Shown here: in pieces, positions 7,364 to 10,717 of the stretch
How the letters are laid out: each line of letters begins with the position of its first letter
Position numbering within the stretch: the stretch's first letter is position 1
Source: Orenia metallireducens
Lineage (GTDB): Bacteria > Bacillota > Halanaerobiia > Halobacteroidales > Halobacteroidaceae
Direction of reading: 5' to 3'
DNA: 42,276 bases
Assembly (NCBI RefSeq): GCF_003001995.1
Contig: NZ_PVNB01000033.1
Span: 1 to 42,276, forward strand
The notes under the pieces: model-generated
Databases searched by the model: none
Told to the model about the DNA's origin: nothing
Seen by the model: only the letters and a program-made list of their open reading frames with translations
Made by a program: the position numbers and the translations under genes

Positions 7364-7723
7364 TTATAATTCAACTAGACCAATGCTAATCTCTAATGCC
7401 TTATTTACTTCCTCTACTATCTTATCACCGAGATGAGTTACATGTCTTTTTAAACGTTTCTTATCTATAGTCCTAATCTGTTCAAGTAAAATAACTGAAT
7501 CCCTATCTAAACTAGAGGTTGTTGAATCAATCTCTACATGAGTAGGAAGTTTTGCTTTATCGATTTTAGAAGTAATTGCTGCAATAATTACTGTAGGACT
7601 ATACTTGTTTCCGATATCATTTTGTATTACCAATACAGGTCTAATCCCCCCTTGCTCTGAACCAACAACAGGGTTCAAATCTGCATAGTAAACATCACCT
7701 CGTTTAATTGTCAATTTAATCAC
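7364..7723 (-). CDS. ndoA: EndoA/MazF-type mRNA endoribonuclease toxin
   Basis: A 119-residue toxin of the MazF/PemK family, closely resembling Bacillus EndoA, which cuts mRNA at short U-rich sites when freed from its antitoxin. Seen: [31 protein letters not shown] with R28 and AAITSKI with T51, equivalent to the catalytic Arg and Thr of EndoA, and [16 protein letters not shown]. Length is normal and no catalytic residue is missing, so it should be active. Its start overlaps the antitoxin stop by 8 bp, the usual coupling in this family. A strong terminator follows. Confidence 0.96.
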
Positions 7724-7994
7724 ACTCCGCTAATCTAGCCTCATAATTAAAAAAGGTGTTATTCTCAACCATAAAGCATTCTGTTGCTATACAAAGATTT
7801 ATTTTGGCCATCTCTAAATATCCCTGTTTCATCTCATCTCGAAATTTACTGCTACGCAGTTGATTAACATAGACTTCCATAGCATCACTAATAAATTGAC
7901 TACGATCTTGATTATCCTCTTTAATGAAGCCATCGATTTCTTGTAATAAATTATTTGGCAGACTGATCATAACCTTCTTTAAATTAGTAGTCAA
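7716..7994 (-). CDS. ndoAI: EndoAI-type ribbon-helix-helix antitoxin
   Basis: The antitoxin of the pair: an N-terminal ribbon-helix-helix DNA-binding domain ([21 protein letters not shown], then [16 protein letters not shown]) and a C-terminal toxin-binding tail ([13 protein letters not shown]). I place the start at the TTG at 7992-7994 because a full GGAGGTG site (8001-8007) sits six bases before it, giving 92 residues ([13 protein letters not shown]...). An upstream ATG at 8021 would put the ribosome site inside the gene. Such antitoxins normally bind EndoA and repress their own operon. Confidence 0.92.
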
Positions 7995-8047
7995 AAAGAA
8001 CACCTCCAAGTTGTAGCTCAAACTTACATTAATATATGTTTAATAGT

Positions 8048-8076: not shown

Positions 8077-8140
8077 CAGGGATAAAAAAATAATCTATAC
8101 CCTAGTTTTTACATTTTTCCGTAATTTATACATTTTAATG

Positions 8141-8168
8141 AATAAAAAGAGACGTTGTTAACGTCTCT
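8141..8168 (-). terminator. Terminator of the 54-residue gene
   Basis: A 9-bp perfect stem (agagacgtt / aacgtctct, 8148-8168) with a 3-nt loop is followed on the minus strand by TTTTATT. It separates the small gene from the toxin-antitoxin operon, so the two are distinct transcripts. Confidence 0.88.
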
Positions 8169-8175
8169 ATATATT

Positions 8176-8340
8176 CTAAAAATATTGATAAGCCTCTCTA
8201 TCTGCTGGTAATCCCTCTTGGGCCAATTTCAAGTTTATCTCTGCCATTTGGCAATAGCCTCTTTTCAATCTCTCTTTTAATTTTTCTCTATCTTCTACCT
8301 TACTATAAACTCTTCTTTTTAGGAATTGGCTTTGACCCAT
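8176..8340 (-). CDS. 54-residue protein resembling an antitoxin C-terminal tail
   Basis: A complete small gene: consensus promoter (8394-8422), GAGGTGA ribosome site nine bases before the ATG at 8338-8340, and an intrinsic terminator after the TAG at 8176-8178. The protein starts MGQSQFLKRRVYSKVEDREK and carries LKRGYCQMAEINLKLAQEGL at residues 26-45. That block matches the toxin-binding tail of the neighbouring antitoxin ([13 protein letters not shown]), while the ribbon-helix-helix domain is absent. It may be a free toxin-binding peptide, a regulator that competes with the antitoxin, or a family of small proteins that share this motif. Its reality as a gene is well supported; its function is inference. 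Confidence 0.8.
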   Translation of the reverse strand: MGQSQFLKRRVYSKVEDREKLKERLKRGYCQMAEINLKLAQEGLPADREAYQYF

Positions 8341-8393
8341 AGTATTTTATCACCTCATAATAAGTTATAACTATACAAAAAGCCACTAAAGTA

Positions 8394-8422
8394 ATTATAT
8401 ATTTTTATATGCCAGATGTCAA
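8394..8422 (-). promoter_or_regulatory. Full-consensus sigma-A promoter of the 54-residue gene
   Basis: On the minus strand the sequence is TTGACA (8417-8422), exactly 17 bp, TATAAT (8394-8399): both hexamers match the sigma-A consensus at all positions. A transcript would start near 8387, leaving a leader of about 47 nt. Confidence 0.85.
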
Positions 8423-8476: not shown

Positions 8477-10717
8477 TTATAATTTGTAGTAATATCCATT
8501 AGATTTAACATATTCTATTAAATTACTATAAGTTGAATTATTGGCTATAGTAGCAGCATCGCCAATAACAATCAACCTTCTTTTTGCTCTAGTAATAGAG
8601 ACATTTAACCTTCTAAGATCCTTTAAGAAGCCAATATTACCTTGGCGATTACTTCTGACTAATGATAAGATAATCACCTCCTTCTCTCTACCTTGAAAGC
8701 CATCTACAGTATTTATCTCAATCTCTTCACCTTTAAGTAACCTCTTAATCAAAGCAACTTGGGCTTTATAAGGAGAAATTAAAGCAATTTGATTAGAATT
8801 AAGCCCAGCACTGATACCATGTTTGATAATCTCTACACTCAATTCTGCTTCGATTCTATTATAGATAGACTTAGAATCCTGTTTAGAGCGTTCAGGGGCT
8901 TCCATCCCTTGAGTATCGAAGAATATGATCCCTTCTTGACGATTAAAAGCCTGCTCGGCTGGAGAATTTCCTGCAAAGCTATTGATATTTAAATCTTTAA
9001 GACTGATATCTTTGACCTCAGAAGCCACTAGTAAATTACCATTATAGAACTTCTGGCTAGCAAAGTTCATTATCTGCTCATTCATTCTATACTGGGTATT
9101 TAGCATACTCTTAATCTCAGAGCCATGAACATCTAATAACCTTTCAAATAAGGATCTTGCTAGACCTGAACTTTCAGCCTTTTGATTTAATATAGTTGGA
9201 GGTAGCTGCTTATGATCACCAACTAAGATAGCCTTATCTACTTTAACTAAGGGAATCAAGGTAGAAGGCTCTGTAGCTTGGGTAGCTTCATCTACTAATA
9301 ATAAATCAAAGGTCTCTGCTGCTAGAACTTCAGAGCCTGCTGTAGAGTTAGTTGTACAGACTACCTCAGCGTCATCAATTAACTCTTTAACTGCTTCCTC
9401 TTCTAAGCTATCAACTCTTGTGAATAAACTGTCAATCTTATCCTGTAGTTTTAACCATTCACCCATCTCTTTAACCCTCTTAGCAGGAATTCCTCTACTA
9501 CCACGACCATCTTCTGCCAAAGACTTAATTTGACTATTGCTCATCCCTCTTCTCCATCTACCGCTAGGATGGGTATACTTCTTCTGGTCTTCTAGAAGCT
9601 GATAGGCTTCTTCTCTAATTTGCTTAGCCTGTTGATATTTAGGATGTTCGTTAATTAAATAATCAAGGGTATGCTCCCTTAAAAGTGGTGTCACCCTAGC
9701 AGGATGTCCAATCCTTAATACCTTTCTACCCCTTTTGACCAATCGCTCTACCAGATTATCTACAGCTGTATTGGAATCTGCTGTGCCCAAGATACTCTTA
9801 TCTTGCTCAATACTCTGCTCCAAAATCTCAATGGCAGTTACCGTCTTTCCCGTTCCTGGAGGTCCATGGACTAAAAATAAATCTTTGGCTGCTAAAGCAG
9901 CCTTTACTGCTTCTTGTTGTGATGAGTTTAAGAGTTTATTTTTAAGATTAATAGATATATCTTCCCCAAATTCTATATCTTTTAATCCTAATATCTTATC
10001 CCTCAACTCTGCCAGCCTACCTTGAGCAGATTTTAACCTACCCAAAGCCGCTAACATTCTTTGAAAGGTAATATCATTTACATACAAATCTAATCTCAAA
10101 CCCTTACTGTAAATAAATTTGGGTGGTCTCTTGTCAAAAACTACAGTAATAGAATAATTAGTCATCTCTACTACCGTTCCTGTAGGATTATCTTTAGCCA
10201 AAGGATTTGCTTTACTAATCATTACTAAATCTCCCACACCAATCTGAGTATCAGGCAATACCTCTCCCCTTCTCTGTCTAATAAACTTAACTAAGGACTT
10301 TCCAGCAAATCCTTGTCCTTGATCTCTACCCCTTAAATGTAAGATAGCTCGTCCCTTATTCTCCCTTTGCTTTCCAGTTAAATTCTTGATCTCTAGCTCT
10401 TGAATTCTCATCTCTTCTTTGCGTTCTAATTGTACTAAATATCTATAATTATTGACATAATCATCTATATATTCTAATCTCTCTTTAAAATCATTATCGA
10501 TCTCAACCCTAACTTCTTTACCTGCTATCTTATTATTATCCATCACCTTTGCTACTTTTTCAGCAATACTATCATTTATCTCTACCAAAGCAATATTATC
10601 TTGAAAATCAATCTTCCCAATCTGACTAGACTCTATTTTGGCCTCATTAATAAAAGCCCCTACTATATCACCAGGTCCCGTACCTCTAACCAAATCTCTA
10701 ATAACTAAATTAAGCAT
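8477..10717 (-). CDS. SF1B helicase (UPF1/IGHMBP2-like) with N-terminal DbpA-type RNA-binding domain
   Basis: A 746-residue ATP-dependent helicase. Helicase motifs are in order: Walker A GPPGTGKT (285-292), LLLVDEATQ (Walker B), GDHKQLPPT, NTQYRMNEQIM, NTVDGFQGREKEVIILS and RRLNVSITRAKRRL, all typical of the UPF1-like SF1B group. Residues about 1-75 (GTGPGDIVGAFINEAKIES, QIGKIDF, ALVEINDSIAEKVAKVM, GKEVRVE) resemble the RNA-binding domain at the C-terminus of DEAD-box proteins DbpA and CsdA. A beta-rich stalk region follows (about 105-215). The fusion suggests action on structured RNA or RNA-DNA hybrids, perhaps at the ribosome; this is inference. The ATG follows GGGAGTG at a rather long spacing. 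Confidence 0.9.
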   Translation of the reverse strand: MLNLVIRDLVRGTGPGDIVGAFINEAKIESSQIGKIDFQDNIALVEINDSIAEKVAKVMDNNKIAGKEVRVEIDNDFKERLEYIDDYVNNYRYLVQLERKEEMRIQELEIKNLTGKQRENKGRAILHLRGRDQGQGFAGKSLVKFIRQRRGEVLPDTQIGVGDLVMISKANPLAKDNPTGTVVEMTNYSITVVFDKRPPKFIYSKGLRLDLYVNDITFQRMLAALGRLKSAQGRLAELRDKILGLKDIEFGEDISINLKNKLLNSSQQEAVKAALAAKDLFLVHGPPGTGKTVTAIEILEQSIEQDKSILGTADSNTAVDNLVERLVKRGRKVLRIGHPARVTPLLREHTLDYLINEHPKYQQAKQIREEAYQLLEDQKKYTHPSGRWRRGMSNSQIKSLAEDGRGSRGIPAKRVKEMGEWLKLQDKIDSLFTRVDSLEEEAVKELIDDAEVVCTTNSTAGSEVLAAETFDLLLVDEATQATEPSTLIPLVKVDKAILVGDHKQLPPTILNQKAESSGLARSLFERLLDVHGSEIKSMLNTQYRMNEQIMNFASQKFYNGNLLVASEVKDISLKDLNINSFAGNSPAEQAFNRQEGIIFFDTQGMEAPERSKQDSKSIYNRIEAELSVEIIKHGISAGLNSNQIALISPYKAQVALIKRLLKGEEIEINTVDGFQGREKEVIILSLVRSNRQGNIGFLKDLRRLNVSITRAKRRLIVIGDAATIANNSTYSNLIEYVKSNGYYYKL

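Follow-up and report, generated by a model that had tools for sequence, protein, structure and literature searches.

Models of type II toxin-antitoxin systems assume a single antitoxin that performs both neutralization of the toxin and repression of transcription. In Orenia metallireducens, a gene for 54 residues that resemble only the toxin-binding tail of the antitoxin EndoAI lies upstream of an intact ndoAI-ndoA pair. This raises the question of what such a tail does beside a complete antitoxin, and a conserved gene that parts neutralization from DNA binding would provide a natural experiment on the purpose of autoregulation. The locus lies in a stretch of 42,276 nucleotides that was analyzed as a whole (the window), and all positions below refer to it. 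The features are as follows.

8394-8422, minus strand: small-gene promoter TTGACA-N17-TATAAT, 12/12 match, outscoring all other promoter-like sites across the 3 kb scanned; conserved in relatives
8350-8356, minus strand: small-gene Shine-Dalgarno sequence GAGGTGA, 9 nt before the ATG
8176-8340, minus strand: stand-alone tail-only antitoxin-like gene of 54 aa, an ORF with an ATG start and its stop codon at 8176-8178
8212-8283, minus strand: putative toxin-binding helix segment, residues 20-43, KLKERLKRGYCQMAEINLKLAQEG, assigned by homology to the EndoAI tail
8141-8168, minus strand: intrinsic terminator separating the small gene from ndoAI, a 9-pair stem (8168-8148) and a T tail, after the stop codon
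8031-8060, minus strand: probable ndoAI-ndoA promoter TACACG-N18-TATATT, 8/12 match, with several relatives having a similar site at the corresponding position
8001-8007, minus strand: ndoAI Shine-Dalgarno sequence GGAGGTG, preceding the TTG at 7994
7716-7994, minus strand: ndoAI, EndoAI/MazE-type antitoxin with a DNA-binding part at its N terminus, probably starting at the TTG at 7994
7364-7723, minus strand: ndoA, encoding the EndoA/MazF toxin (PF02452); neither this genome nor most of the relatives' genomes yielded another PemK/MazF family member

Distribution and linkage

The small gene, whose full translation is MGQSQFLKRRVYSKVEDREKLKERLKRGYCQMAEINLKLAQEGLPADREAYQYF, is flanked by a superfamily I helicase gene (8477-10717) on one side and by ndoAI-ndoA on the other, all of them encoded on the minus strand. 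The listed ndoAI ORF starts too early, and the likely TTG start agrees with the 91-aa form in relatives. Combining a genome profile search with ORFs spotted in the same gap, we found the small gene in 45 of 59 genomes of the salt-loving Halanaerobiia, directly upstream of full-length ndoAI-ndoA and encoding homologues of 47-62 aa. The profile matches two adjoining places in most genomes of the class, namely the small gene and the ndoAI tail. By family, the gene is present in f1 (8/8), f2 (5/5), f3 (14/14), f4 (2/2), f6 (8/8), f8 (1/1), f9 (6/8) and f10 (1/1), and absent from f5 (6 genomes), f7 (5 genomes) and genus g23 (2 genomes); the contig of the single f11 genome begins at ndoAI. Two of the thirteen genomes without the small gene (G050 and G056) have neither EndoA nor any profile match, and G026 was scored from the profile search alone. 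Named carriers are Halonatronum saccharophilum, Halanaerobacter jeridensis, Candidatus Frackibacter and Fuchsiella alkaliacetigena, and in the scan that gave these names all other matches, which lack a stand-alone copy, represent full-length antitoxins. Outside the class but within the phylum, 193 of 287 genomes match, each exactly once and with no second copy; among the matches listed, all are in open frames of full ndoAI length.

The earlier note had proposed a homologue search, its idea to be given up if homologues occurred mostly in genomes without EndoA. Instead, EndoA is present in 44 of the 45 genomes with the small gene, and in the exception (G043) the gene lies at a contig end. The distance to ndoAI is about 6 to 390 nt wherever measured. 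The upstream neighbor varies, being the helicase gene in f1-f4, f8, f9 and f10 and another gene (family C4) in f6, and where the small gene is absent only 76-225 nt separate the upstream gene from ndoAI; the small gene therefore belongs with ndoAI-ndoA. The EndoA gene tree is weakly resolved and needs about four changes; a single basal gain in the class with losses in f5, f7 and g23 would fit it. Since these three groups and the phylum outside the class make do with EndoAI alone, the module in general does not depend on the extra gene. An origin from a phage or plasmid was rejected, given that no stand-alone relative was found in IMG/VR, or in the phage collection and plasmids apart from S. 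aureus-type mazE. Two unannotated 'phage' records, OR845010.1 (L139) and OR847256.1, have mazE-like matches. The former is an unverified contig with a MazF-type ORF immediately after a 56-aa MazE ORF, which argues for host chromosome rather than phage; it is probably S. aureus chromosomal DNA.

Transcription signals and selection

A promoter of at least 11/12 lies within 130 nt upstream of the small gene in 27 of 35 homologues, against 0.3 expected from shuffles, and it is perfect in 20 of the 35 (0.01 expected). The scan placed an intrinsic terminator after the small gene in 25 of 35 homologues. The earlier note had credited the gene with its own promoter and terminator, and as far as sequence can tell this is borne out by the 12/12 promoter and by the stem with its T tail. 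Separate promoter candidates for ndoAI, located 3' of the terminator, are perfect in f4 and most f6 genomes and weaker in f1. No operator common to the two promoters was seen by eye.

Two further elements lie in the leaders. A conserved element, approximately TTGTARAAACTA, is found at 8100-8113 (minus strand) of the window; in most f1, f2 and f4 genomes it precedes the ndoAI start by about 94-131 nt. It may be an operator or a site for some other regulator. Elements like it sit upstream of the ndoAI promoter in the intergenic regions between the small gene and ndoAI (L079-L093), with TTTTTAGAAAATATTAATATAGAA at a similar place in f6. The leader of the small gene contains, between promoter and start, the palindrome AGTTATAACT (8363-8372, minus strand), which is at least partly kept in G001, G002 and G004 and absent from other families.

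Across the whole small gene, the Orenia metallireducens genome and its nearest relative (G001) differ by five synonymous and no non-synonymous changes. Ka/Ks is mostly 0 to 0.3 in comparisons within families, although these values, like the promoter counts, are drawn from related genomes and are not independent observations. The small gene is real and under purifying selection: the promoter matches, the recurrence at the same site throughout the class and the changes relative to the nearest relative are more than chance would give. A chance ORF or pseudogene is ruled out by the class-wide conservation, the promoter statistics and Ka/Ks, and an RNA element by an Rfam search that gave no match.

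Likeness to the antitoxin tail

The match to the tail of the adjoining EndoAI, on which the earlier note was built, is confirmed by BLASTP (E = 1e-7 over 50 residues) and by profile comparison (E = 5e-8; 34% identity over 32 aa). The alignment covers the tail alone, and the N-terminal DNA-binding part of EndoAI has no equivalent in the small protein. A Pfam search of the small protein gave no match, and a model built on 25 homologues (mean pLDDT 78.7) predicts a single long helix over residues 3-42, a short uncertain helix at the end and no other domain, so that the note was also right in assigning it no DNA-binding domain. The tail of B. subtilis EndoAI (PDB 4me7) is matched weakly (E = 0.034); its EndoA-binding C-terminal helix corresponds to Met64-Glu83 of YdcD (PMC4041440). 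The NCBIfam model antitoxMazE_Staph (NF041459) matches at 29.7 bits (E = 5e-7), below its curated cut-off of 108 bits, which on sequence supports homology of the helix and not membership of the family.

Residues G28, Y29, M32 and N36 are invariant in the small-gene homologues. M/L(-3), G, Y, M(+4) and N(+8) are common to the small proteins and the tails of the adjoining EndoAI in 34-35 of 35 pairs. MazE occupies the groove of the MazF dimer with a helix, and the same is proposed for AimX of Bacillus phage phi3T, with M14, Y18, E20 and M21 of AimX as the published contacts among the residues it has in common with MazE (PMC10769878). At three of these positions the small proteins have retained M/L, Y and M, along with the invariant N, as have the adjoining EndoAI tails; at the position of E20, the small Halanaerobiia proteins have Q or, more often, K. 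In Halanaerobium-type small proteins the C-terminal half of the helix has drifted after the GYxxMA motif (...VNEDLIRNVS), so binding there may be weaker or different and the function may have shifted. Pairs of small protein and EndoAI tail from the same genome score 47.8 versus 44.6 when permuted, with 7 of 2000 permutations as high; since relatedness alone could produce this excess, co-adaptation within genomes was set aside.

The small protein thus has the GYxxMAxxN toxin-binding helix of EndoAI/MazE antitoxins and lacks their N-terminal ribbon-helix-helix DNA-binding domain. Its gene is also not placed as in the canonical arrangement of one operon directly before the toxin, having its own promoter and terminator and a full-length ndoAI intervening before ndoA. 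Like AimX it is a short protein consisting of a MazE helix with no other domain; it does not lie in a phage arbitrium locus, its chromosomal neighbors being the helicase gene, ndoAI and ndoA, conserved class-wide.

The ndoAI-ndoA pair itself varies among relatives. EndoAI of G005 (L084, same family) has 85 aa and a DNA-binding half that looks degenerate, with no NRSEFI-like segment, next to an intact tail and stand-alone gene; from its sequence, a loss of autoregulation is possible there. In Halanaerobium-type loci (L103-L107 and L124-L130), the ndoAI and ndoA frames overlap by up to 88 nt if the first possible toxin start is taken.

Proposed role and comparison with known systems

With the gene's reality, its tail homology and conserved residues, its linkage to ndoAI-ndoA and its separate transcription signals established from these comparisons, we consider it probable that the small gene encodes a second, tail-only antitoxin for the neighboring EndoA (MazF). 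Its most likely part is that of a non-autoregulated antitoxin capping EndoA constitutively, a bacterial-genome counterpart of AimX. By analogy with AimX and SaMazE (the MazE of S. aureus), the short helical protein would, like the EndoAI tail, lodge in the groove where the two EndoA subunits of the dimer meet and there block RNA binding and hence RNA cleavage; it would also compete with EndoAI for EndoA and so set the amount of free EndoAI. Lacking a DNA-binding domain, it should be unable to repress transcription. Because this domain is absent and the promoter is strong and its own, the neutralizing capacity would be independent of ndoAI-ndoA autoregulation, and the promoter suggests steady, high expression that would form a constant buffer against free EndoA.

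It is unlikely that the small protein is instead a modulating competitor with little antitoxin action, which would fill the EndoA groove or bind the EndoA-EndoAI complex, shift the EndoAI:EndoA ratio on DNA and thereby alter ndoAI-ndoA expression. The near-consensus promoter and the terminator would suit such a role, and the +3 contact residue is unlike that of the adjoining EndoAI tail. AimX, whose affinity for MazF is five times that of MazE, displaces MazE from MazF (PMC10769878). However, any occupant of the groove should block RNA too, and both tail-only proteins in the literature inactivate the toxin: AimX inactivates MazF (PMC10769878), and SaMazE inhibits SaMazF, with its segment 23-56 binding SaMazF in an operon that is not autoregulated (PMC4041440). 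A modulator also presupposes autoregulation of ndoAI-ndoA in these bacteria, which is itself putative.

The phage protein phi3T_93 binds MazE and AimX by the same helix, releasing MazF (PMC10769878), and the small protein carries that helix. As a free tail it could soak up proteins of this type and keep EndoAI on EndoA; we regard such a decoy as very unlikely, given that the strict linkage to ndoAI-ndoA and the strong, apparently constitutive expression suit a toxin partner at least as well. Slightly less likely still is a function that does not run through EndoA, either with another partner or as a leader peptide or attenuator of ndoAI. The terminator does separate the small ORF from ndoAI, and the neighboring leader contains a conserved non-coding element, but it is the amino acids and the toxin-contact motif that are under selection, ndoAI in many relatives has a promoter of its own after the terminator, Rfam offers no match, and the genome holds no further MazF protein as a target. 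A functionless degenerate duplicate of ndoAI, which the alignment to its tail alone might suggest, has next to no chance and is refuted by retention across eight families with low Ka/Ks and a conserved promoter and start site.

The earlier note knew of no described stand-alone gene of this kind beside ndoAI-ndoA. It had missed the tail-only MazF inhibitors AimX (PMC10769878) and SaMazE (PMC4041440), and the mechanism itself would therefore not be new. What stands is that neither of these accompanies a full-length ndoAI as an additional chromosomal antitoxin; the open-access papers searched yielded no account of an intact ndoAI-ndoA with a second tail-only antitoxin transcribed separately next to it, nor of the conservation of such a gene throughout a bacterial class.

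All three small proteins have the GYxxMAxxN helix in common. AimX is likewise a stand-alone protein (51 aa) that has the toxin-binding helix of MazE but lacks a DNA-binding domain, and it shares 43% identity over 28 aa with the small protein (EEMAKGYEEMAAIN aligned to ERLKRGYCQMAEIN), common descent being demonstrable for nothing beyond the helix. Its target is a Bacillus-type host MazF; the partner of the small protein, putatively, is also of MazF type. AimX differs in being phage-borne, under arbitrium control and able to bind phi3T_93, whereas the small gene is found in bacterial genomes next to ndoAI-ndoA throughout a class. SaMazE (56 aa, NF041459) is also tail-only, and the small protein is closer to it (52% identity over 31 aa) than to the EndoAI next door. 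SaMazE is the sole antitoxin of its operon, directly before mazF, whereas the small gene is an extra one. B. subtilis EndoAI (YdcD/MazE) has a homologous EndoA-binding C-terminal helix, but in contrast to the small protein it has an N-terminal DNA-binding part. In B. subtilis, SpoIISB and SpoIISC provide two antitoxin genes for one toxin; they belong to an unrelated protein family, and the toxin is a different one.

The tail-only design of AimX and S. aureus MazE thus also occurs as a stably maintained gene next to an intact ndoAI-ndoA, and the small-gene family is a natural set of candidate MazF-inhibitor peptides. On balance we favor the view that throughout the class two antitoxins serve the chromosomal MazEF, an operon-encoded one that binds DNA and a strongly, separately transcribed tail-only buffer independent of autoregulation, in which case AimX would be the viral version of a cellular device.
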